NCBI GenBank assembly: GCA_016214035.1
Contig: JACRPF010000016.1
Location: forward strand, 62,001 to 126,000
DNA: 64,000 bases
Direction of reading: 5' to 3'
Source: Spirochaetota bacterium
Lineage (GTDB): Bacteria; Spirochaetota; Brachyspiria; Brachyspirales; JACRPF01
Translations under genes and position numbers: made by a program
The notes under the pieces: generated by a model
The model's input: the letters and a program-made list of their open reading frames with translations, nothing else
What the model was told of the DNA's origin: nothing
The model's database searches: none
Shown: positions 4,197 through 46,555 of the stretch, piece after piece
How the letters are laid out: each line of letters starts with the position of its first letter
Numbering within the stretch: position 1 is the first letter of the stretch

Positions 4197-6261
4197 ACAA
4201 AACGCGCTGCACACCATCGAGAATGAAAACATCCTGCTGTCATTTGACGCAAAGGGCAACCTGCATTCGCTTACAAACAAACTGACCGGCCACGATTATG
4301 CCGGCGGGAAACCCGTATGGCGCCTTTATTTTCAGCGTGACGCTGTCTATGACTGCGAAATCGTCTATCCTGACAAACCGCCGCGCATCGAGCGCACTTC
4401 GGATACAATGACGCTCAGCTGGAATGACGTAACGTACCAGGGAAAAGCGATGAAAATCGTTGTTAACGTCACTGTTTCAGTTCATGCAGATGAGACATAT
4501 TGGTCGATACATATCGCCAACAATGAGGCAGAGATAAATGTACGCGAATGTCAGTTCCCGCTTGTCGGCGGCATACAGATAAAACCAGCGCAGGAACTGC
4601 TCTGGTCGCAGCACGGCGGTGAGCGTATAGCGGATATCCGTACTGATGTAAAGCGCAGACATTCCGCGTACATGGCATCGGATCACCTCTTCGTCGGCAT
4701 GAATACGATGTATCCCGGACGCGGCGCCGCCACAAACTGCTGGGTGCTTGCTGACGACACTGAAGGCATCTATTTCGGCTGCCATGATGCGTCATTCACC
4801 TATACCGGACACTCGTTCCGATTGTACGGCGAAGACCTCGAATCCGGCTTCTTCCGCTATCCATCCATTGCAGCCGGACAATCCGCAACAATCGAGAACT
4901 TCATCATCGCTCCGTATCGCGGGACGTGGCATGCCGGTGTAAAGCGTTACCGCACCTGGGCTGATTCATGGTATCGCCACGGCAAAGTTCCCGCATGGAC
5001 TGCTGACATGAACGGCTGGCAGCGCATAATCCTCAAGCATCAGTACGGTGAACAGCATTATCGATACGATCAACTGCCGCAGATACACCATGACGGAATG
5101 GCCGCCGGCATCAACACGCTGTTCATGTTCGGCTGGTGGCAGGGCGGGATGGACAACTCCAATCCCGAATACGTTGCCGCCGACGATCTTGGCGGTGATA
5201 AAGAACTTGCGAAAGGCATTAAATATTTCCGCGACAACGGCGGGAATGTGATACTGTACAGCAACGGAAAACTCATCGACACGACAACGAAGTTCTATAA
5301 AGAAATCGGCAAACGCATTGCGATAAAGGATATGCTCGGCAATGAGATACACGAAGTGTACCGCTTCCGGGGACGCGGCACATTCTACGGCAATAATGCG
5401 GACAGAACATTTGCGGTTGCGTGTCCGTCGTCCGAGGAATGGTTCAAGGTGCTCACCGGTATCGTAGACACAGCCAAACGCATCGGCTGCAGCGGGGTGT
5501 TCTTCGACCAGATCGGCATGGGCGACATCGCCTGCTGCGACCCCACGCACGGACATCCGGTGCCGTTCATGAACATCATGCAGGAAAAAGCGCGTTTGAC
5601 CGAGCGGCTCAGGGCGTATGTGAAGAAAGCAGACCCCGACATGGCATTCGGCATTGAATGGCTGTGCGACTGTACGGCGCAGGACGTCGACTTCATCCAC
5701 TCACTCGGCGGTTATTGTGTCGCCACGAACGACTGGGCGAAAACCGGAGAAAAGCCACGGTCACGCGGCTTCATCGACTTCTTCCGCTACCTTTTCCCGG
5801 AGATAATCGTCAGCGACCGCGAGATACGCGATGACACCGACATCGAGCGCAGGCTCAATCACGCCGTACAGAAAGGACTTCACAGCGATGTTGAGATCTA
5901 TCGATGCAGAAAGACCATCGCCGAGACGCCGCACTATCAGGCGCGCATGACCGAGACCAACAAGTTTCGCCAGCGTCAATCGGCACTGCTCCTTCGCGGA
6001 ACGTATATCGACACGACCGGATTCACCTGCGACAACCCCGACATCGACGCGCGCGCGTTCGTAAACGGCGACATGATGGGCGTTGTAATTTGTCAGAGTC
6101 ATAAAGATTCGATAACCGCGAAGATAAAAGCCCCCGGATATGTTTATTCCAATACCGATGGTGTCGGGAATGCCGTCACCGAGAAAATCGCCGGCGATAC
6201 GATACAGGTGACCGTACGGAAGAATGATATCGCCATGCTGATCTTCAAACGAGCAGTGTAA
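4189..6261 (+). CDS. DUF6259-like glycan-associated protein
   Basis: A protein of 690 residues without a signal peptide. The start at 4189 is preferred over an in-frame upstream ATG at 4063 because AAGGAG lies just before it and the upstream extension overlaps the previous gene. The N-terminal 240 residues are beta-rich and resemble a galactose-mutarotase-like sandwich (NLHSLTNKLTGHDYAGG, PVWRLYF). The rest is a probable TIM barrel, with FMFGWWQGGMDNSNP near residue 310 and CSGVFFDQIGMGD near 440, where Asp residues at strand ends could be catalytic. I assign it to the DUF6259 type by overall look; proteins of this kind sit beside glycoside hydrolases in spirochaete, lentisphaere and planctomycete genomes. 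Activity is unknown. Confidence 0.6.
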   Translation: MPEQNALHTIENENILLSFDAKGNLHSLTNKLTGHDYAGGKPVWRLYFQRDAVYDCEIVYPDKPPRIERTSDTMTLSWNDVTYQGKAMKIVVNVTVSVHADETYWSIHIANNEAEINVRECQFPLVGGIQIKPAQELLWSQHGGERIADIRTDVKRRHSAYMASDHLFVGMNTMYPGRGAATNCWVLADDTEGIYFGCHDASFTYTGHSFRLYGEDLESGFFRYPSIAAGQSATIENFIIAPYRGTWHAGVKRYRTWADSWYRHGKVPAWTADMNGWQRIILKHQYGEQHYRYDQLPQIHHDGMAAGINTLFMFGWWQGGMDNSNPEYVAADDLGGDKELAKGIKYFRDNGGNVILYSNGKLIDTTTKFYKEIGKRIAIKDMLGNEIHEVYRFRGRGTFYGNNADRTFAVACPSSEEWFKVLTGIVDTAKRIGCSGVFFDQIGMGDIACCDPTHGHPVPFMNIMQEKARLTERLRAYVKKADPDMAFGIEWLCDCTAQDVDFIHSLGGYCVATNDWAKTGEKPRSRGFIDFFRYLFPEIIVSDREIRDDTDIERRLNHAVQKGLHSDVEIYRCRKTIAETPHYQARMTETNKFRQRQSALLLRGTYIDTTGFTCDNPDIDARAFVNGDMMGVVICQSHKDSITAKIKAPGYVYSNTDGVGNAVTEKIAGDTIQVTVRKNDIAMLIFKRAV

Positions 6262-32539: not shown

Positions 32540-35500
32540 ATGAAAATACGTATCCTGTCGATTGTTGCGCTTGGTACGTTCCTGCTGGCTGCTGAACCCG
32601 TTACGGTTCCGCCGCTCCCCTCCGGCGCATATCCTGAATGGGATTCTGCAAAGGCATGGCATGCCGATTCCGGTTTTCGCGGCGAAGTCTGCCTGAACGG
32701 GCTCTGGCGCTTCCGCTCGGCTGCCGTTGCTCCGACTGCTCCGGTATTCATCGACGGTTTCGAGGGAGAGACGCCCGCCGGATGGAGTATCGGCATTGCG
32801 TCGGCATACTCGGCAACGCTGGATACGGTCATCAAAAAAAGCGGCCGCGGCGCGATGAAGGCGGTTTTTGACATCCCGCAGCGTCAGAATTTCTATCACA
32901 TAACACGCGATAATGTCGCCGTAAAGCCGTCGACAGCGTATGTACTGTCGGCATGGCTTAAGACCGAGCTTTCGTCAGGTGATATATCACTTGAGATGCA
33001 GGATATGCGAAATAATTTCGGCAAGGAAACGAAGATATATCTTGTGCAGCGCGGCGAAAAATACAAAGGTACCGCGGATTGGAAAAAAATACGGCTTGAA
33101 TTCCGCACACCCGAAGGATGCACCGCCGTAAAGATCATGCTCCGCAATTACGGCGACGGCGAGGCACTCAAAGGCACGGTGTGGTTTGACGATATCACGC
33201 TCGATACCGCCGCACGGCCTTTGACCGATGCCGTATTACCGGCGGACGGCAACTGGGGATTCGCAAAGGTACCGGGGAGCCCCAAAGACAGCGCCTTTGC
33301 AACATACTGGCACGAAAAGGATACGCTCAGGAACAATCAGGGCGCACTCGAGTACGCATGGTATCAGCGCACGTTCATCGTGCCGTCAGAATGGAACGGC
33401 CGGCGTATCTGCGTGTATGCGGAACGTGCCGCCAATTCACTCGGTGTATTCATCGACGGTGTTAAAGCCGGTGACGCCGGTTATTTCGGCGGCCGCATAG
33501 ATGTTACAAGGCTGGTGACACCTGGGAAACAGCATACACTATCCATTCTCACGCGCGCACGAGACGGCGGAGACCTTTCCGAACAGCTCTCAAAAGTGCA
33601 GCCGGGCAATAATGGCATTCCCGGAAATGTCTATCTTGTATCCGCACCGTACGGCCATACACTCGCCCCCTTCCGCATAGAGACAAGCGTGAAAAAGATG
33701 AGCGTATCGGTATTTGCAGCGCTTGCATCGAATGAGACTGCACTGCCGTCAGGGCACACCATCACCTGTGAAATAACACGTGAAGGAAAGACCGTAAAAA
33801 CATTTTCATCACCGATAGATGCGGGAAAAGCCGTCGCGACAGCGCTGTTCCCGGAAGCGGTTCTCTGGGATATCGGCCGCCCGTCACTCTATGCCATGAC
33901 GGTAACACTTCGCAATGACCGCGGCGACGTGATCGACCGCACGCCGCCTGAACGTTTCGGCTTCCGTGAATTCGAGATACGCGGACGATACTGTTATCTC
34001 AACGGCATAAAGATCAACATCCATCCATGTGCGTTCTCGGTACGGTATTCATATCTCACGCGCGACTGCATCGCACGATGGTGTTCAAATGCCGTTGCCG
34101 AGGGAAGGAATTATATCTACCTGGAAACGGTTGACCGGCCGGGAAACACCGAAGGATTGCAGGAGGTACTTAACGTCGCCGATGAGATGGGAATACTCAT
34201 GGCGATAACGCCGACGCAGATCAACACGTTCTGGCAGCGGCTCGAAGAACCGGCGGTCACTTCATGGTTCCGCTCAAAACTCGCTGAACGCGCCGAACGC
34301 GTGTGGAACCATCCCTCGCTGGTGTTGTACCGCATGAACATGAATTTCGACTGTTACGCTCAGGACCAGAATCCGCTCTGCCTCGACGGCGTGCAGAAAC
34401 CGGATACGAACTCGCAGCTTGAGAAAAAATTCGCGGCGGCTGATATATCGGCTGCGATCATGAAATCCATCGATCCTGCGCGCGGCGCGTACCATCATGC
34501 GAGCGGAAACATGGGCGATCTCTATACGCTCAATAATTATCTCTGCTGGCCGGAGGAACAGGACCTCCGGGAATGGCTTTCAATCTGGGCCGCCAGGGGA
34601 ACAAAACCGCTCATGATGGCGGAGTTCGATCTGCCGTATCCGGGTTCGTTCAGTATGAACGACCCGACAAGCTGGTGGATGAACGAACCGCTTATGACCG
34701 AATACGGGGCGATGCTGCTCGGAGAAAAAAGCTATGCGCTTGAAGAGGATGACTTCCGGATCTTCTCAGACCTTGCGTGGAACCGTCAGAAGAATAAATG
34801 GGAAAGCGCCTATGGTTACTATTGCCGCGCTGTTCCGGACATCGCTGATGAGTGTTCATCAAGGTATTACAAGACCACATTTCAGGCATGGCGTACCTGG
34901 GGAATATCCGGCGGCATGAACGGATGGGAATACGCCACCCAGCGTCTTAAAAAACGGAAAACATCGCCGCACTTTTCAAGCATGCGTGAAGGACCGCCAC
35001 CGGTAACACTCCCGACAGACTGGTCAAAATTACAGACACCCGGATACAGCCCCGATATATTTACGTATGACTGCCGCGGCACCGGAGAGATACTCACCTA
35101 CACGTTTCCCGGTCTGCCGTCCGAAGCGGAATATCTTGAGCCGACAAAATGGGGAAAAACCGTATCCAATGTCCTGGCTCCGCTCTATGCGTACATCGCG
35201 GGAAGCGGTAAAGACTGGCCGTCGCAGGACCATGCGTTCTACACCGGAGAATCGGTGAAAAAAAGCGTCGTGCTTATCAACGATCAGCGGACGCCGGCGG
35301 TATTCCGTGTACAGTGGAAAGTAATGCTTGGGAACAAGGAGATTGGTTCAGGAAAAGGTACCGCGACCGTCCCTCCGGCTGAGACAGCTCAAGTACCGAT
35401 CTCATTCATTGTCCCCGCAGTGATTGGCCGCACAGAAGGCACTGTCACCGCTGAGATAATATGCGAAAAAAAGGATATCCCCGTCGATGCATTCGCATTT

Positions 35501-37333
35501 CAGGCATACGCGAAGCACGCCGCACCATCCGTCGATTTCTCAAAATGGGCGCTGTATGATCCGAAAGGAAAAACTGCGGCGGCCTTCAAGCGGAACGGTA
35601 TTACACTACGCTCAGTGAAAGATATTCCCGACGGGCTTGATGTACTCGTTATCGGATGCGAGGCACTTGAAACCAATACGCCGCCGGCATTCCTTAAGAC
35701 GCTTACCGCACGCGCTGCAGGCGGAATGCAGGTTCTTGTTCTGGAGCAGACTGCCGATGCGTTGAACGTCTTATTCCGTTTGCGGACAATACCGCGCGGC
35801 ATGCGCGAGGTGTGCGTACGCGATTCGGCGCATCCGGTAGTGTCTGGACTTTCCAGCACCGACATGGCGAATTGGCGGGGGAACACCACGCTCTCCCCGC
35901 TCGATGGACCGCCGCCGAGTCTTACAACATCGCAGCGATGGGAACGCGTCTGGCGCTGTTCACAGCGCGGTGTTGTTGCATCGATTATCGTGGAAAAGCC
36001 GCATGTCGGGTCTTTTCGACCGATTGTGGACTGCGGATTCGATCTCAGGTACACGGCACTCTGGGAATCATTCGAAGGACGCGGCCGAATGGTATTCTGC
36101 CAGATGGATATCACCGACCGTATCGGCATCGATCCTGCCGCAGACATTCTTACGGCGAATGTAATCCGGAACTGCGCTGCGTGGAAACCGGCACCCGCTG
36201 CAAAAACAGCCCTGATAACTTCAGGTAATACGCTAGCCGACTTCGCGCCCTATCGCATCATCGGAGAACAGAACCCGGTGTCTGCTGCCGGCATGCAATC
36301 GCTGGTACTCGGTCCCGGTTGCGGCGTATGGATTACACAGCACGCAGATGATGTGAAAAAGGTGCTCGCGGACGGAGGTACCGTCATCGCCGCGGGGTTG
36401 TTCGAGAATGACGCATCCGCATTGGCGGCGGCCGGTTCACCCGAGCTGAAGTTCGTAAAAAAAACAGTGTTTACGACACTCCTTTCCGGAAGTATGCCTC
36501 CATCACTGCGCGGCGTCGGACCCGGCGATGTACATTGGCGCGAAAAAAAAGAGGTCATGACGGTTGCCGCATCACCGAAAGGAAGCTGGGTATCCGACAG
36601 CGGAGCATACGCCGAAATACGCACAGGCAGCGGACGCATCGTATGGATACCGGTACTGCCGAATGTCTTCGATGAAAAACGCCGGCCCGACCTTATATTC
36701 ACCAAAGTCAACGCATCACGGGTAATAGCCCTGGCACTTGTGAACGCCGGCATCCCGTGCGCAACCGGTCTCGCCGAGATGATATCGAATGCGCAGTATC
36801 TTGCTGCCGCTGAAATACCGCTTTCAGGTGTATGGCGCATGCGGAAGGACACCGATAAAAAAGCGTCTGAAGCCTGGATGAAGGACGACACCGATGAAAA
36901 GTCTGACACATGGGTGGATATGAAAGTTCCCGGCATGTGGGGCGAGATGTATCCTGACTGGAACGGATATCTCGGCGACGTATGGCACCGTTTCAGGTTT
37001 ACCGCACCTGCTGCGGCTGAGAACTTGCCGCTTGAGTTTTACGCCAAAACCATTGATGACACCGACGAAGTATGGCTTAACGGTGTAAAAATCGGCGCTA
37101 CAACGACGAATACGGCGAAGTGGTGGGAGACAGAACGGCATTACCGCATACCCGCGGGGCTGCTTCGCATCGGCTCAGAGAATATCCTGACGGTACGGAT
37201 AAACAATAATTATCAGGACGCCGGTTTCGTTGGACCGGTGCGGCTGCAGTTTTCCGAACCGACAGCCAGCATCGCGCATTATATTGATGTGAGGAAACCC
37301 CGAGACGACCCATACGCGTATATGCGTTGGTAA
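32540..37333 (+). CDS. Giant GH2-like secreted protein lacking the usual acid/base glutamate
   Basis: A 1597-residue exported protein (signal peptide 1-18). Residues 45-60 and 235-370 form the GH2 sugar-binding jelly roll (CLNGLWRFRS, WYQRTFIVPSEWNGRR), split by an inserted CBM4/9-like sandwich (68-225). An immunoglobulin-like domain (375-480) leads into the barrel (480-720). The barrel keeps NHPSLVLYR, but the next residues are MNMNFD (599-604) where GH2 enzymes have the catalytic Asn-Glu. The nucleophile candidate is Glu695 in MMAEFDLPY. Long C-terminal parts include a flavodoxin-like or ThuA-like segment (about 1010-1190) and a second GH2 jelly roll (about 1440-1575, VWLNGVKIG). It follows the epimerase gene by 10 bases with AAGGA. 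Perhaps a binding or altered-mechanism protein. Confidence 0.72.
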   Translation: MKIRILSIVALGTFLLAAEPVTVPPLPSGAYPEWDSAKAWHADSGFRGEVCLNGLWRFRSAAVAPTAPVFIDGFEGETPAGWSIGIASAYSATLDTVIKKSGRGAMKAVFDIPQRQNFYHITRDNVAVKPSTAYVLSAWLKTELSSGDISLEMQDMRNNFGKETKIYLVQRGEKYKGTADWKKIRLEFRTPEGCTAVKIMLRNYGDGEALKGTVWFDDITLDTAARPLTDAVLPADGNWGFAKVPGSPKDSAFATYWHEKDTLRNNQGALEYAWYQRTFIVPSEWNGRRICVYAERAANSLGVFIDGVKAGDAGYFGGRIDVTRLVTPGKQHTLSILTRARDGGDLSEQLSKVQPGNNGIPGNVYLVSAPYGHTLAPFRIETSVKKMSVSVFAALASNETALPSGHTITCEITREGKTVKTFSSPIDAGKAVATALFPEAVLWDIGRPSLYAMTVTLRNDRGDVIDRTPPERFGFREFEIRGRYCYLNGIKINIHPCAFSVRYSYLTRDCIARWCSNAVAEGRNYIYLETVDRPGNTEGLQEVLNVADEMGILMAITPTQINTFWQRLEEPAVTSWFRSKLAERAERVWNHPSLVLYRMNMNFDCYAQDQNPLCLDGVQKPDTNSQLEKKFAAADISAAIMKSIDPARGAYHHASGNMGDLYTLNNYLCWPEEQDLREWLSIWAARGTKPLMMAEFDLPYPGSFSMNDPTSWWMNEPLMTEYGAMLLGEKSYALEEDDFRIFSDLAWNRQKNKWESAYGYYCRAVPDIADECSSRYYKTTFQAWRTWGISGGMNGWEYATQRLKKRKTSPHFSSMREGPPPVTLPTDWSKLQTPGYSPDIFTYDCRGTGEILTYTFPGLPSEAEYLEPTKWGKTVSNVLAPLYAYIAGSGKDWPSQDHAFYTGESVKKSVVLINDQRTPAVFRVQWKVMLGNKEIGSGKGTATVPPAETAQVPISFIVPAVIGRTEGTVTAEIICEKKDIPVDAFAFQAYAKHAAPSVDFSKWALYDPKGKTAAAFKRNGITLRSVKDIPDGLDVLVIGCEALETNTPPAFLKTLTARAAGGMQVLVLEQTADALNVLFRLRTIPRGMREVCVRDSAHPVVSGLSSTDMANWRGNTTLSPLDGPPPSLTTSQRWERVWRCSQRGVVASIIVEKPHVGSFRPIVDCGFDLRYTALWESFEGRGRMVFCQMDITDRIGIDPAADILTANVIRNCAAWKPAPAAKTALITSGNTLADFAPYRIIGEQNPVSAAGMQSLVLGPGCGVWITQHADDVKKVLADGGTVIAAGLFENDASALAAAGSPELKFVKKTVFTTLLSGSMPPSLRGVGPGDVHWREKKEVMTVAASPKGSWVSDSGAYAEIRTGSGRIVWIPVLPNVFDEKRRPDLIFTKVNASRVIALALVNAGIPCATGLAEMISNAQYLAAAEIPLSGVWRMRKDTDKKASEAWMKDDTDEKSDTWVDMKVPGMWGEMYPDWNGYLGDVWHRFRFTAPAAAENLPLEFYAKTIDDTDEVWLNGVKIGATTTNTAKWWETERHYRIPAGLLRIGSENILTVRINNNYQDAGFVGPVRLQFSEPTASIAHYIDVRKPRDDPYAYMRW

Positions 37334-38439: not shown

Positions 38440-40287
38440 TCAAATAATATAGTGATGCGCGATATCCCGAAGACGCTTGTCGCCGAGCACATGAAAGCTC
38501 CTTAATTTCCTCACCGTTTCGCTTGCGAACGAAGCGAGCGGTATATAGACAATTTCCACTCCCTTTTGCGCCGCAAAAATTTTTATACCTTCTGACGGAG
38601 GATTCGGAGCGCAATAACCCGTATATTTTTCCTTCGAATAGATGATGCCCGCGTACAGCAGGAGCTCGGCCTCGTTGGCGACCACGCGTGCGGCACGGAG
38701 TATCGGATAGAGCAGCCACACGTTCTTTACGTTCTGCGGCGGCATGATGGACGCATACCCGCCGAAATAACAGCGTGAAATGCCGGGCCCCACGAGATCG
38801 AGCCCGGGTTCGCTCGCATAGAGTATGAGGTCACTGTCGTCGTGCGCCTCCGACAGCCATGAAATGCGCCACGGATATTCATCATAATTGACATCGTCGA
38901 AAATCATGACCATCGGCCCCACATCGCCCGTAACCGGAGGGATATCGCGGACATGAATCTCGTGCTTATGATAATTGCGTATCGTCTCGCGCATATCGAT
39001 GCCGTCCTCGATGCTCGCGGTGAACGGATGTATGCGCACGCGTTCCTCACCGAGTTTTTCGCGTATGCGCGTCCGGAGATAGTCCATCGAGCGCTCCATG
39101 CGTATATCCTCGGGAATATGCGACATATGGTTAATCGATGAACGCCACACGTCGTCCCACTCGCCCTCATACCGTTCCGCCGGGCGCTCGGTAAGCGACA
39201 CTTTCTTGAGCGATGTTTTCCAGATATGATCGCGACGGTTCAGCGTTATTTTCTTTTCTTTCAGATATCCCGCAAGCGCATCGGTAAGCGGGTCCTTCGT
39301 CACTTTGATATCCGGATACCGCTCGTCGGCTTCATGCCCCGAATAAAACGAGAGCGTCTTCAGCACTTCAAGCGCATATTCGTTATTAACGAAATTCTTT
39401 GCCGCGGTAAGTATATCGATGCGGTCCGGCGTGATATGCCGGTCGAGAAGCGCCAGATTCCTCAGATACTTCATCATCCCCGCTTCCTGCGTGAATGGCA
39501 CCGCAATCCGGTAATTGCGGCGCGCCTCGTAAAAAATACGTCCGATAAGATCGAGCCTGTTGAATTCCTTTTCGCTTCCGTTCCGGTACAGTTCATAGAC
39601 GTTCATGATATACGGCATTTCACCGAGCACGGCAAAAAACGAATCCCGGTGCAGATGGTGAATGCTGATGACTCCGTCGTTCGTCTCGTCATCATCCTGC
39701 GCAGCGGTGTTCTCGCGCAGGTGCCGTTTAATCCCTTCCCAATGCGACAGCCCGCCGATGAACAAAACCTTACCGAAACGCCTGGCGCACTCCGCAAGTT
39801 TCACCGCGATGAACGCCTCACGAGCTTCATCCACGGATGATTTTTCAGCGAACATATGCCGGGCGGTAATCTCAGTGTAATACCGTTCAAGGCCGATGGT
39901 CATGAGAAGCTGATCGTCCGGCATCAGATACCGCGAGTTTTCCGGGAATACCGGTACATCCTTGTCCACACAGCAGAACGGTATCTCTCCCTCTACGGCC
40001 ATTCTCACGCCTTCAATTATCGAATCTGCAGGATCGACGGGAATATACAGCGCCTCCTGATCCGTGCTTCGCATGATAAGTGATATGGACGGCAGACGCC
40101 CGACCGCTTCACGAAGCGCCTCAGTGAACGCTTCAGGCTGCTCAACGGCAATTACGTCGGGCTTGAACGAATGCACCGCGTCACGTACCGCACGCGCAAA
40201 ATACACCCGCGAGTGTATTGACGGAACGGCGACGATGGAACCGAATTTGAGCGGCGATTCTTCGCTGAGTGTAAAAAGCGTATCCAC
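38440..40287 (-). CDS. TraB-like domain protein of unknown function
   Basis: A 615-residue soluble protein. The N-terminal 190 residues resemble the TraB/PrgY fold: a strand with VAVPSIHSR, then FKPDVIAVEQPEAF, and later FGKVLFIGGLSHWEGI, in the order of the TraB motifs G-x-x-H, VxVE and GxxHxxG. The remaining 420 residues, rich in Arg, Tyr and Glu, were not recognised; they include GPMVMIFDDVNYDEYPWR and GPGISRCYFGGYAS. The start is GTG, directly abutting the glycosyltransferase stop, with AAGGAG before it, so the two are cotranslated. TraB-family proteins are membrane or peptide-signal proteases; this one lacks membrane segments. Confidence 0.55.
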   Translation of the reverse strand: MDTLFTLSEESPLKFGSIVAVPSIHSRVYFARAVRDAVHSFKPDVIAVEQPEAFTEALREAVGRLPSISLIMRSTDQEALYIPVDPADSIIEGVRMAVEGEIPFCCVDKDVPVFPENSRYLMPDDQLLMTIGLERYYTEITARHMFAEKSSVDEAREAFIAVKLAECARRFGKVLFIGGLSHWEGIKRHLRENTAAQDDDETNDGVISIHHLHRDSFFAVLGEMPYIMNVYELYRNGSEKEFNRLDLIGRIFYEARRNYRIAVPFTQEAGMMKYLRNLALLDRHITPDRIDILTAAKNFVNNEYALEVLKTLSFYSGHEADERYPDIKVTKDPLTDALAGYLKEKKITLNRRDHIWKTSLKKVSLTERPAERYEGEWDDVWRSSINHMSHIPEDIRMERSMDYLRTRIREKLGEERVRIHPFTASIEDGIDMRETIRNYHKHEIHVRDIPPVTGDVGPMVMIFDDVNYDEYPWRISWLSEAHDDSDLILYASEPGLDLVGPGISRCYFGGYASIMPPQNVKNVWLLYPILRAARVVANEAELLLYAGIIYSKEKYTGYCAPNPPSEGIKIFAAQKGVEIVYIPLASFASETVRKLRSFHVLGDKRLRDIAHHYII

Positions 40288-41133: not shown

Positions 41134-43518
41134 TTAATACTTCGTACCGCCCTCGGAAAGACCGCGGATGAAGAAACGCATGGCGAAAATAAAGAGCAGA
41201 ATGACCGGTATGGCTGCAAGCGCATAGCCCGCCATGAGCGGTCCCCACAATTTGAAATATTCGCCCGACATTCGGAGGAGCTGTACCGTGATCGGCAGCT
41301 TGGTATTGTCGCGCATAATGATCAACGGCAGGAGGAAGTCATTCCATTCATGGACGAAACGCATGATACCGACGGTAGCGATTATCGGCCCCGAAAGCGG
41401 CAGCACCACGTTTGCCATCTGCTGAAGATGCGAGGCCCCGTCGATCTCGGCGGCCTCAAAGAGGTCTTTGGGAATATCGGTTATAAAATTCTTCAATATG
41501 AATACCGACCCCACCAATGCGCCGGCGGTCCCCACGCATATGAGCGCGGTGAATGTGTTCAGCAGGTTCATGTCCTTTAAAAGCCTGAACAACGGCACCA
41601 GGTTCGCAATGGACGGCAGCATCATGAGCAGCAGTATCGCATTCCAGAAAAGATTCTGCAGCGGCATTTGGATACGAATGAAAAAGTATGCCGCAGCTAG
41701 CGCAAGCAGCACCGCAAGCACGACAATTGAACCGGTGATGAAAATACTGTTCGCAACGTTCGTACCAACCATCGTCCACGCCGTCTGCCAGTTTTCCCAG
41801 TGGAACGGCGCCTCAAGCGTGAGCGGATTGCCGTAAAACTGCGAATTGTTCTTGAGACTGACGATCATCATCAGATAGAACGGGATGAACGCGAAAAACA
41901 GCACGAGAATAATCGTAAAGTGCTTCATAAAGCGGAGAAAGCGGACGGTGACGCTGTAACCGAGCCGGTAAAGCCCGGTGCGTGTGAAGTCCAGATACTG
42001 CTGATAGATGATATCGGGATCCACTCCCTCATGACCGCGCATCCGTATGCTGAGCAACTTGATATCACGATACGGTATCGCAGCTATCGCTATAAAGAGG
42101 AACAGTACGAAAAAGAACGGCGTGTACGGAATTGCCGGTTTTCCGTTGAATAACGGAAGGCAGGTCACTATTCCGGCTATTGCCGCTAACGGGACAAGGA
42201 TACGAAGGAGCGCTTCAAACGCATTTGCGGAACGCCGCACGAACATAAAATGATTCAAAAAGCTCCACGGCATCCCGCACATTCCCAGTATCATCGCAGC
42301 GAAATAGTATACTAACGGTGACAATGGCGGTAATGGAGACGCTTTGCCGCCGAAATAGGCTACTGCGAACAATATGGAACCGGCGACAAGCAGCAGCACA
42401 CGCTTGAAATAGCCTTTTTTATCATAATAAACGCTGAGCAGTTCATACGGAAGACTGCCGAGGATAAGCACGAACGATATGGCCCAGAGCCGGTTACCGT
42501 ATGCGAGCCCGAGAGCTATGGCCATGAGAATGATACGGAATACATTACGCTGTGTTTTACTTTTCTGCTTCCATTCCGACGTAAATGACGAAATGTTCTG
42601 CAGACCGAACACGATGACGGTAAGCACAATACCTATGGCGCAGGCGTATCCCATATCCTGCTCAACGAATGCTTTTCTGAGCATAAAGAGCGCAGGCACA
42701 GTGGCGACACCCCCGGGACCGCCGTCAATACCGACCAGAGCAAGTACGGTGCCCGCATCGCGTATCGTATCGATAATGGTGAAAATAAGCAGCACGTAGA
42801 TCGATCCGAACAGATACGGCAGCTCGATCTTCGTGAATTTTGTCCACCAGTTCACGCCGTCAATATCAGCGGCTTCATACACACTGTTATCAACACCCTG
42901 CAGTTTCGCAAGGTGGGCAAGAACGCCGAACGACCCCACCCACGGAAAGCCCCAGAGCACCATGGCGGTGACAATAAGTTTCGGGTTTCCCAGCCATGCC
43001 GGATTCTGATCGGGTCGGAAAATACCCCAGCCCACGATCTTGTCGGTGAGCAAGAGCAGCTGTTTTATGCCGAAAAAATTGATGAACTGATTAAGATAGC
43101 CCTGGCTGGTTTCGAAGAAAAACGAACGCCACACGAGGACGATAACGAGACCGGGGACGATCATCGGGACGACAAAGAGCACGCGATACAGAAACTGCAT
43201 CTTGTCGCTTTTACAGCGGTGTATGCATACCGCAACGAGCAGGGCGGGTATCATCTTGAGCAGATTGAATGCGCCGAGGATGAATACCAGCTTGAATGAT
43301 TCCCAGAACGTCTTGTTCTTGAACAGATCAAGGTAGTTATCAAACCCCACCGGGTCGGCGATGTCGGCACCGTTCCACTTAAAAAAGCTGTGAAAGACTC
43401 CGCTCAACGCAGGATAATATGAGAATATCCCGATGATGATGAGTGTCGGAATGATGAAGAGGTAAATATCCCAGTGATATTTCAGCGTTTTGAGCGTCAC
43501 TTTGTTTTGCGAAATCAT
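41134..43518 (-). CDS. Fused sugar ABC transporter permease (MalF-type plus MalG-type)
   Basis: A 794-residue membrane protein joining two permease subunits that are normally separate. Residues 10-312 are a MalF/UgpA-type unit with the ATPase-contact EAA loop at 215-234 (EAADIDGVNWW). Residues 525-794 are a MalG/UgpE-type unit with its EAA loop at 688-707 (EAAEIDGASHLQ). The 210-residue linker is itself hydrophobic, with about five or six extra membrane segments (325-485). The reading frame is unbroken through both. With the LysM-binding-protein fusion upstream it forms an import system for oligosaccharides. No ATPase gene is in the operon, so a shared MsmK-like ATPase elsewhere is assumed. 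A good AAGGGAGAG site precedes the start. Confidence 0.9.
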   Translation of the reverse strand: MISQNKVTLKTLKYHWDIYLFIIPTLIIIGIFSYYPALSGVFHSFFKWNGADIADPVGFDNYLDLFKNKTFWESFKLVFILGAFNLLKMIPALLVAVCIHRCKSDKMQFLYRVLFVVPMIVPGLVIVLVWRSFFFETSQGYLNQFINFFGIKQLLLLTDKIVGWGIFRPDQNPAWLGNPKLIVTAMVLWGFPWVGSFGVLAHLAKLQGVDNSVYEAADIDGVNWWTKFTKIELPYLFGSIYVLLIFTIIDTIRDAGTVLALVGIDGGPGGVATVPALFMLRKAFVEQDMGYACAIGIVLTVIVFGLQNISSFTSEWKQKSKTQRNVFRIILMAIALGLAYGNRLWAISFVLILGSLPYELLSVYYDKKGYFKRVLLLVAGSILFAVAYFGGKASPLPPLSPLVYYFAAMILGMCGMPWSFLNHFMFVRRSANAFEALLRILVPLAAIAGIVTCLPLFNGKPAIPYTPFFFVLFLFIAIAAIPYRDIKLLSIRMRGHEGVDPDIIYQQYLDFTRTGLYRLGYSVTVRFLRFMKHFTIILVLFFAFIPFYLMMIVSLKNNSQFYGNPLTLEAPFHWENWQTAWTMVGTNVANSIFITGSIVVLAVLLALAAAYFFIRIQMPLQNLFWNAILLLMMLPSIANLVPLFRLLKDMNLLNTFTALICVGTAGALVGSVFILKNFITDIPKDLFEAAEIDGASHLQQMANVVLPLSGPIIATVGIMRFVHEWNDFLLPLIIMRDNTKLPITVQLLRMSGEYFKLWGPLMAGYALAAIPVILLFIFAMRFFIRGLSEGGTKY

Positions 43519-43576: not shown

Positions 43577-45592
43577 TTACTTGAGTTTCAGGCGCGCGCG
43601 CGCTTCCGGACTGTAATAGAACGGCGGCGGCGGTATGATGCCATCCGCTGCGTTCTTTATCAGCGCCCGCTCGAATGCTACATCGACTTCCCTGGTGAAC
43701 GGCCGCAGCATCACATAGCGGTATTTCGACCAATACTCTTTCTTTTTCCGTTCATCGGTGGCGATGATGGCCTTAGCCCTGAGCATATTGACGATCTTTT
43801 CGTCGTTGATGATATTGCGCCGCCAGTTCTTGTTCACGATGATGTAGTCGTTAAGACCGCGGTCAAGATAGTACGAGGTAAAATCGTCGCGCATTTTTTC
43901 GAATGACATCTGACCGACCTGATACATCGCATACACCTGCTGCCATTTTATGGCGGACTCCCCGCCGATACCGGGGTTCCATCCGCCCTGTACGCCGTCA
44001 TTATGCGGTTTGAAATACTGGAGCACACCGGCACCATCGGCACCGGATACGGAGGGTATCCATCCGATAAGTTCGTTGAGCTTATAATTATTCTCTTTTG
44101 CAGACATGAACAGCAGGAAGTCGATGGCGATGCGTCTGCGATCAGCGGCACTTTCCGGCGTGGGAGTACCGAATTGAAAACCCGCACCCGGATCCTCGAA
44201 CGACGCGCCCATGAACTGCTTGCGCAGATCCTCATCATCATCCTTGCCGCTCGGATACGGAAAATCCATGATGCCGATCTCAAACCCGTTATCCTTGGCC
44301 TGTTCGGCAAGTGTGAGCGCATCCCATGTCCCGGTGATAATAAACACCGACCGCTGCTGTACGAACATGAGTACCGCATCGTCGCGCCCCAGACCGGTAA
44401 ATCCGGGCATGGAATTACTGCAGTACTGCGCAACCATTTTAAAGCGCGCACGGTATGCGGGGTGATCCATCGTCACCATCTTGGATTTGAATCCGATGTA
44501 CTGTTCCACCGCACCCAGCGTACAGTCATGATTGAAATCCATAGCCTCGCGCGCGGAGGCCGCCATCACATTAAAAAGGCTTCCCTCGACCATATTCATA
44601 TGATATTTCGAGTTTGCTATCGGAGCGAACATCGGCACGGTAAGCATATAATTTGAAAGCTCTTTCTTCCGTAATGCAAGCTCAGATTCGGCAGACGCAA
44701 CGCTTCCCGCGGACGCGGAGGCCGTCTTCAACGCCTGCAGATGCTTTTCCGCTTTTGCGACTTTCGCGCTGAACTTTTCAATCTCCGTGCGGGATGTCCG
44801 GTTAATGTACTGGTGCTTCTTTATTTTCTCACATGCAGCAAGGAATTCACTCCACGTTTCCGGCGCGGTATCGCGTCCGGTGAGCTTCTTGAGCAGATTC
44901 TTATTGTAATAGAAACGGACAAGGAATTGCGACAATCCGATGGTCATGTATTCCTGAACGTCATTGTTATAACACGTCTTCAATCCGTCCTTGGTTGTCT
45001 CCCGCAGCGGCACTTTTGCAAATTCATTATGCGCATTATAGGGGTTCGGCTGCGTAACGATATCGGTCAGCGGAGTGAAATAGCGCATGTAGTAGCCGAT
45101 GAGCAGATTGTACGGCACTCCGAGCGCGCATTCTATAAGGTCCGGTGCCGTCCCGCCGAGCATCTGCGTGATGAACCACTGCCCGTAGGTCGACTCGGGC
45201 ACGGCGTTCTGAACAACACGGACATTCGGATGGATTTTCTGATATTCCTTCGCCATGTATGCGATACCGTCACGTACGCCCGGCTCAAGCTGCCAGTGCG
45301 CAAGCCGCACGGTGATGATACGGTTCTGCGCGCTGCCGGGCATCTTGATCTTCATGCCGGGTTTGATAATTTCATTCGGAGAAATATCGGGATAATTCTC
45401 TTCGCAGATACGCGCCACCGTCGTCTGATAACTGTCGGCGATTGATTTAAGCGTTTCGCCCGGTTCAACGACGTGAAACACCTCGGTATCAACACGCCCG
45501 TTCATGAATACCATGACCGTGGCGATAACAAACGCGCCCGCGATAACGATGAGACCGAAATATTCTTTAATGGTCTTAATCAACTTACCCAT
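43577..45592 (-). CDS. Membrane-anchored LysM and extracellular solute-binding fusion protein
   Basis: A 671-residue protein. A single membrane helix (about 12-30) without a clear cleavage site is followed by a LysM domain (38-85: FHVVEPGETLKSIADSYQTTV to IIKPGMKIKMP). From residue 93 it is a family 1 solute-binding protein (VRLAHWQLEPGVRDGIAYMAKEYQKIHPNVRV, then VFIITGTWDALTLAEQ). A coiled-coil insertion at about 250-320 interrupts it. LysM binds peptidoglycan N-acetylglucosamine, so the receptor would be tethered to the membrane and held on the cell wall. It is encoded just before the fused permease. Ligand is probably an oligosaccharide. The start has AGGAGCAGG before it. Confidence 0.85.
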   Translation of the reverse strand: MGKLIKTIKEYFGLIVIAGAFVIATVMVFMNGRVDTEVFHVVEPGETLKSIADSYQTTVARICEENYPDISPNEIIKPGMKIKMPGSAQNRIITVRLAHWQLEPGVRDGIAYMAKEYQKIHPNVRVVQNAVPESTYGQWFITQMLGGTAPDLIECALGVPYNLLIGYYMRYFTPLTDIVTQPNPYNAHNEFAKVPLRETTKDGLKTCYNNDVQEYMTIGLSQFLVRFYYNKNLLKKLTGRDTAPETWSEFLAACEKIKKHQYINRTSRTEIEKFSAKVAKAEKHLQALKTASASAGSVASAESELALRKKELSNYMLTVPMFAPIANSKYHMNMVEGSLFNVMAASAREAMDFNHDCTLGAVEQYIGFKSKMVTMDHPAYRARFKMVAQYCSNSMPGFTGLGRDDAVLMFVQQRSVFIITGTWDALTLAEQAKDNGFEIGIMDFPYPSGKDDDEDLRKQFMGASFEDPGAGFQFGTPTPESAADRRRIAIDFLLFMSAKENNYKLNELIGWIPSVSGADGAGVLQYFKPHNDGVQGGWNPGIGGESAIKWQQVYAMYQVGQMSFEKMRDDFTSYYLDRGLNDYIIVNKNWRRNIINDEKIVNMLRAKAIIATDERKKKEYWSKYRYVMLRPFTREVDVAFERALIKNAADGIIPPPPFYYSPEARARLKLK

Positions 45593-45676: not shown

Positions 45677-46555
45677 CTATTTGCGACGCTCCATATCGCT
45701 CATGCGCTGCAGCGCGATCTTCGCGGCGAACACGCGCATGTCGAGCGGATATTCCTTGATGAGCCGGTTATAATATTTCCGGGCGAGTGAAAAATCACCG
45801 AGACCCCATTCGGCGATATCGCCGATAACCCATATCTGACCGGTAAGATCGCGAACGCTCGGATTGACCTTATCCTCTTCAACTATCTTCAGAAGCGCCA
45901 TATTTGCGGCGAGGCGTTCCTTCGGTTTCTCCAGAATGCGGTACACGCGGTCAAGACAGACATACGCGGCGCGCAGGAAATTCGGATTCGGGTAACCGTT
46001 GATGTATTTCAGCAGGTTCTTCTCCGCGATGAGCGCGTCGCTCTTCTGCCAGGAAACAACATAGGTCTCCTGCAAATAGACGATGGCTTCTTCGGTAGCC
46101 TGATGCACGGGGAACGCGTCGATGAGGCGCTGATATGCGGCGCGGATAGCGGTGAAATCCGGCTCTTCGTTCACACCGACGACGTGCTTCATGCGGCCGA
46201 GCGCAAGCATCGCCCATGCAACTTCATCGTGCTTGCCGCCTTCTTTGATAACAGTTTCATAGAGTTCGGCGGCTTTTTTCTTATCGGGATTGTCATTAAA
46301 GTTATATACAAGTCCGAGGCCGTATGTTGCCTTCAGCCGGGCGCTCATGAGCTTATCATCAGTCGTCGTGGCCGGTACAGAATCGATAACCGCGGTAAAA
46401 TTGCGCATGGCTCCTTTGTAATCGCTGAAAATATATGTTTTCCAGCCCTGAGCTAGTGTTTTTTCAACCTCGTTGGCCGCGACCTTCTTGCCTTGAGCGA
46501 ACATCATGATCACAGGAAACACCGACACAAGAACCACAAGCAATAGCTTCTTCAT
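45677..46555 (-). CDS. Exported helical-repeat (TPR-like) protein
   Basis: A 292-residue protein with a signal peptide (KKLLLVVLVSVFPVIMMFAQG). The ATG at 46555 has AAGGAG before it; a frame extension of 75 codons upstream would run through the promoter and is rejected. The body is helical with TPR-like repeats: AQGWKTYIFSDYKGAMRNFTAVIDS, ARLKATYGLGLVYNFN, DFSLARKYYNRLIKEYP. Such proteins act as periplasmic scaffolds. As first gene of the operon with the LysM-binding protein and fused permease, it may assemble them. Confidence 0.75.
   Translation of the reverse strand: MKKLLLVVLVSVFPVIMMFAQGKKVAANEVEKTLAQGWKTYIFSDYKGAMRNFTAVIDSVPATTTDDKLMSARLKATYGLGLVYNFNDNPDKKKAAELYETVIKEGGKHDEVAWAMLALGRMKHVVGVNEEPDFTAIRAAYQRLIDAFPVHQATEEAIVYLQETYVVSWQKSDALIAEKNLLKYINGYPNPNFLRAAYVCLDRVYRILEKPKERLAANMALLKIVEEDKVNPSVRDLTGQIWVIGDIAEWGLGDFSLARKYYNRLIKEYPLDMRVFAAKIALQRMSDMERRK

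Follow-up and report, generated by a model that had tools for sequence, protein, structure and literature searches.

The window, a stretch of 64,000 nucleotides from a Spirochaetota bacterium, encodes a fusion of a MalF-type and a MalG-type permease in one chain, probably the channel of a CUT1 importer, and the linker joining them probably serves as a topology-neutral tether. The interval initially annotated for this gene (41134-43518) is right but the gene itself lies on the minus strand, as do its parts and the two cassette genes described below: its frame of 794 amino acids opens with an ATG and runs uninterrupted from 43518 to 41134, while the plus strand over the same interval is interrupted by stops. 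Two BPD_transp_1 stretches are found in the chain (Pfam). The MalF-type half (residues 1-318, 42565..43518) has six membrane helices and is delimited by the ends of separate MalF proteins; its residues 12-310 give MalF/UgpA/GlcT-type matches in NCBIfam. The MalG-type half (residues 519-794, 41134..41964) likewise has six membrane helices, and residues 527-793 give MalG/UgpE/GlcU-type matches, among them GlcU (E 1.6e-40) and MalG (E 8e-30). Foldseek searches of the PDB with the structural model retrieve SugA, AlgM1 and MalF for the former and SugB and MalG for the latter. The PDB relatives are the pairs SugA/SugB, MalF/MalG and AlgM1/AlgM2, and each member of these pairs matches its own half only. 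Both EAA motifs are intact and lie exactly where the initial annotation had placed them: residues 215-234 (EAADIDGVNWWTKFTKIELP; 42817..42876), the ATPase coupling loop of the MalF half, which is conserved in eight aligned members, and residues 688-707 of the MalG half (EAAEIDGASHLQQMANVVLP; 41398..41457).

According to an alignment of separate relatives, residue ~318 would be the last of a native MalF and residue ~519 the first of a native MalG. The intervening membrane linker (residues ~319-518, 41965..42564), absent from separate MalF/MalG pairs, is predicted to contain six helices, in agreement with the extra membrane helices proposed initially. In an AlphaFold2 model built from 63 aligned sequences (pLDDT 84, pTM 0.79), which replaced a discarded model from 8 sequences only (pLDDT 41), the six main helices span residues 321-340, 345-355, 367-389, 401-415, 433-452 and 467-480, and a short helix (501-513) precedes the MalG half. 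The helices may be grouped into hairpin 1 (residues 321-361, 42436..42558), hairpin 2 (residues 367-421, 42256..42420) and hairpin 3 (residues 433-481, 42076..42222). The two permease halves are mostly modelled with a pLDDT above 80 and hairpin 1 with 82-94, while hairpins 2 and 3 reach 49-76.

The same one-chain permease is encoded at 27 further loci (28 in total) distributed over three phyla, which together with the single frame and its two permease domains bears out the idea of a natural fusion. In the phylum of the window, surveyed for the fusion as had been suggested, three of the 393 genomes carry it: the genome of the window itself, a member of the same family with a 74% identical protein (hereafter the sister) and G011. 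Of the 388 genomes surveyed in the phylum of G393, to which a Lentisphaerae MAG belongs, 21 have it, as do two of the 45 from the phylum of G397, where one copy is truncated at a contig end. The genome surveys were sampled, with phyla such as Planctomycetota outside them, and the counts are lower bounds. A contig scan gave five relatives in MAGs titled Lentisphaerae, Verrucomicrobiia, PVC group and Hainich bacterium, every one a single-ORF fusion and two of them adding to the whole-genome counts; in PLSDB no fused permease was found on plasmids. It had been recognised from the start that the fusion would be refuted by a sequencing error joining two genes, or by homologues consistently separated by a stop codon. 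The 27 other fused loci, including that of the sister, argue against a sequencing or assembly error, as does the fact that the linker is in frame and under purifying selection, and no member of the fused clade is broken by a stop codon; the probability of an artefact is thus negligible.

In a tree of 27 fused proteins and 22 separate MalF and MalG pairs (49 rows, 579 columns), a single branch with 100/100 support sets all the fused proteins apart from the separate pairs. The fusion therefore probably arose once, as judged from the tree; a very long branch to the outgroup row makes the position of the root unsure, but the split between fused and separate forms is independent of the root. The patchy spread over three phyla implies that the fused gene was transferred horizontally or has often been lost. 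The three members from the phylum of the window are scattered in the tree, and a single clade for these is not rejected (p 0.18). Two other candidate fusions were rejected. A 1380-aa open frame at L005 resembled a fusion of a solute-binding protein (SBP) to the permease, but the SBP is encoded in a different frame, and the start of the permease is near 5986; open frames of ‘584 aa’ taken for second fusions hold MalF and MalG in a shared frame with a stop codon between them. Among the unfused relatives, malF and malG of L110-L113 share a reading frame and lie about 18 bases apart with one stop codon, an arrangement that, as read from the sequence, is one step short of a helix-free fusion.

The most variable part of the family is the linker. 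Between two fixed landmarks (residues 307 and 532) the permease of the window has a spacer of 224 aa; across the family the spacer measures 60-370 aa. Helices were counted by a dynamic-programming predictor of our own, using the positive-inside rule, and in one AlphaFold2 model. By this predictor most fused proteins have two linker helices, while none are predicted in L003, L004 and L097-L099 (linkers of 60-69 aa), four in L100 and also in L005 and L105, six in the window, the sister, L103, L104 and L106-L108, and about 12 in L102. An even number is preferred in all 27 fused proteins, with a small margin for the window and L005. In known systems the C-terminal end of MalF and the N-terminal end of MalG are cytoplasmic, which would explain the even predicted counts, since only with an even number do both halves keep their cytoplasmic ends.

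Growth of the linker appears to have occurred by addition of hairpins. An HMM built from the two-helix linkers of other members recognises hairpin 1 of the window (iE 6e-10; hhalign 5e-9), which is thus homologous to the common two-helix linker, while hairpin 2 (AlphaFold2 helices 367-389 and 401-415) was added in the lineage of the window. In the L103 group the homologous part is the last hairpin together with the segment before MalG (33% identity over ~100 residues to L092, E 2e-13). The four added helices hence come after the shared hairpin in the linker of the window and before it in that of the L103 group, which suggests that six-helix linkers were gained independently; a single clade of all six-helix linkers is not rejected by an AU test on the halves (p 0.28). 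The L102 linker matches that of L103 twice, over residues 1-182 and again over its last ~100 residues (44% identity, 1e-16), indicating an internal duplication in L102. A three-fold hairpin repeat was also considered for the window but is suggested only: hairpin 1 is solid, hairpin 2 shows no significant match to hairpin 1 and is indistinguishable from shuffles, and hairpin 3, a possible copy of hairpin 1, is marginal, its similarity to hairpin 1 exceeding all 500 local shuffles, barely, and that to the L001 hairpin reaching a blastp E of 0.009.

The linker is translated and under weak purifying selection. Values of dN/dS in the family are about 0.03-0.11 for the halves and mostly 0.13-0.36 for the linker; in the close pairs among L103, L104 and L108, where synonymous change is unsaturated, they are 0.05-0.11 and 0.25-0.36, respectively. 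Constraint on the linker is 3-7 times weaker than on the halves. Between the window and the sister, with dS near saturation, amino-acid identity is 89% for the MalF half, 43% for the linker and 83% for the MalG half. Purifying selection and a two-helix hairpin still recognisable across phyla may point to some sequence-specific role of the linker. The new function tentatively ascribed to the linker in the initial annotation is left unsupported by the linker's range from 0 to ~12 helices, its weak constraint and the searches made with it. A family search on the linker alone, made as the initial annotation had advised, gave chance-level Pfam matches to unrelated families at E up to 1 and no convincing domain, and a known domain was rejected; a mobile domain was likewise rejected, as, the sister genus apart, a search of 296 genomes from the phylum of the window gave no convincing homologue. 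The free variation in linker length and sequence would also be expected if the product were a polyprotein, cleaved in the linker after translation into an ordinary MalF and MalG. This is very unlikely, as a conserved cleavage motif was not seen, many members have most of the linker embedded in the membrane, and a preserved topology matters most for a chain that is made whole.

The fused permease is part of a conserved cassette. In 25 of the 27 loci analysed, the order is a TPR protein, an SBP_bac_1-type binding protein and the fusion; the exceptions are L106, near a contig edge, and L107, where neither partner is nearby. In the window the binding protein (43577..45592, 671 aa) combines SBP_bac_1 and LysM (Pfam) with an N-terminal membrane anchor. 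A hydrophobic N-terminal segment and no obvious lipobox were seen in the SBPs examined, and the segment is read as a predicted membrane anchor. The LysM is situated between this anchor and the SBP domain, and among the fused loci examined it occurs only in the window and the sister (L042). The TPR protein (Pfam TPR; 45677..46555, 292 aa) carries a signal peptide; its likely start is residue 76 of the ORF as listed, where the alignment of the L042 protein begins. Downstream of the permease are a 615-aa ORF (38440-40287) with no Pfam match at E 0.001 and a secreted protein of 1597 aa (32540-37333) that is glycoside hydrolase-like by eye.

The fused locus in the window has no ATPase gene in the operon. 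Three other loci (L004, L097, L099) have a MalK-type ATPase gene directly downstream of the permease, and L043 has one upstream. OB_MalK is matched only once in the genome of the window, at C20:24552 on another contig, by an ATPase about 60% identical to these locus-linked ones, so that it is simplest to assume an ATPase shared between importers, of the MsmK kind. Sharing of ATPases is established for CUT1 importers (e.g. PMC4519317, PMC7658222).

Conservation of the TPR - anchored SBP - fusion cassette across phyla, and a hairpin that is homologous between phyla and under purifying selection, would fit with extra helices forming a working lateral membrane module, e.g. one that docks the anchored SBP or the TPR protein, or one that senses the state of the membrane. 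Five members (L003, L004, L097-L099) nevertheless keep both the TPR protein and the anchored SBP while lacking any linker helix, and the extra helices are lineage-specific and fast-evolving, which makes a lateral module improbable. Nor is it likely, to about the same degree, that the linker is a hairpin-growing module recruited in some lineages to hold the SBP and the TPR protein in a permanently assembled importer. As members without a linker membrane helix keep the same partners, the linker is unneeded for basic importer function.

A tether enforcing 1:1 pairing is instead the best-supported role of the linker, as judged from sequence. In type I importers two six-helix subunits stand face to face and each EAA loop contacts one ATPase, and no feature of the fused protein conflicts with this architecture. 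The two six-helix halves would pair within the chain to form a normal pseudo-twofold pore, and each EAA loop would dock one of the two subunits of a dimeric MalK-type ATPase, presumably encoded elsewhere. The adjacent membrane-anchored binding protein would deliver the substrate, putatively of the maltose/oligosaccharide class, with the TPR protein as a conserved accessory. As a topology-neutral membrane tether the linker would admit only even numbers of extra helices, and lineages may have gained (2 to 4, 6 and 12) or lost (0) helices as hairpins while the pore stayed unchanged. The likely benefit would be a fixed 1:1 stoichiometry and co-translational assembly.

A natural one-chain maltose-type importer is useful where a fixed stoichiometry is desired or where the halves are to be mutated singly. 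The natural series of 0, 2, 4, 6 and ~12 predicted linker helices round a constant pore bears on the gain of helices in membrane proteins, and allows the neutrality of extra hairpins, usually hard to test, to be asked. Elsewhere in the genome of the window two paralogous importers of another design are found (L044:6815-11908 on contig C2 and L045:6868-11973 on contig C20). In each, SBP_bac_1 and MalF are joined in a protein of about 1000 aa, after which comes a MalG of 687 aa. Behind its first helix this MalG carries ~370 inserted residues that weakly match Glyco_hydro_42, and it may be a permease into which a sugar-binding or hydrolase-like domain has been built. Similar long ORF pairs are also present in G393, G394, G395 and G397.

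Compared with known systems, the nearest relatives of the fusion are separate MalF/MalG pairs from the phylum of G393 (L060, L109-L129; 36-51% identity). Like the fused loci, these are often preceded by a binding protein gene, but they consist of two genes whose MalF and MalG ends lack a linker, and no TPR relative was found beside them. The family resembles the CUT1 pairs MalF/MalG (MalFGK2), SugA/SugB, AlgM1/AlgM2 and UgpA/UgpE in the sequence and fold of both halves and in the EAA motifs, and CUT1 importers in general in the SBP_bac_1 partner and, in some fused loci, in a neighbouring gene for an OB-domain MalK-type ATPase. The initial annotation called a one-chain channel unusual; this holds for MalF/MalG, for which neither a published fusion nor a variable hairpin linker was found in the literature searched, but one-chain type I permeases exist for other substrates. 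The thiamine permease ThiP (3.A.1.19) and PhnU2 are also fused type I permeases, and the iron permeases FbpB/FutB (TC 3.A.1.10) join, as here, two six-helix type I halves in one chain, FutB being a duplicated twelve-TMS protein (PMC3654945). These belong to other families with other substrates, whereas the halves of the present fusion are of the MalF and MalG types; its best NCBIfam matches are CUT1 permeases, and FbpB and ThiP families are absent from these matches. In Foldseek searches of the PDB, the one-chain FbpB of Thermus thermophilus (9j4r_A) spans both halves over 753 columns with an rmsd of 15.5, indicating that the way the halves are placed relative to each other is poorly matched; it accommodates both halves in 490 residues, compared to 794 here. 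The one-chain principle is thus already known from type I permeases for iron and thiamine, while CUT1 pairs are two polypeptides and the fused family is one chain with 60-370 aa inserted between the halves, which makes it a variant of CUT1 rather than a plain member.
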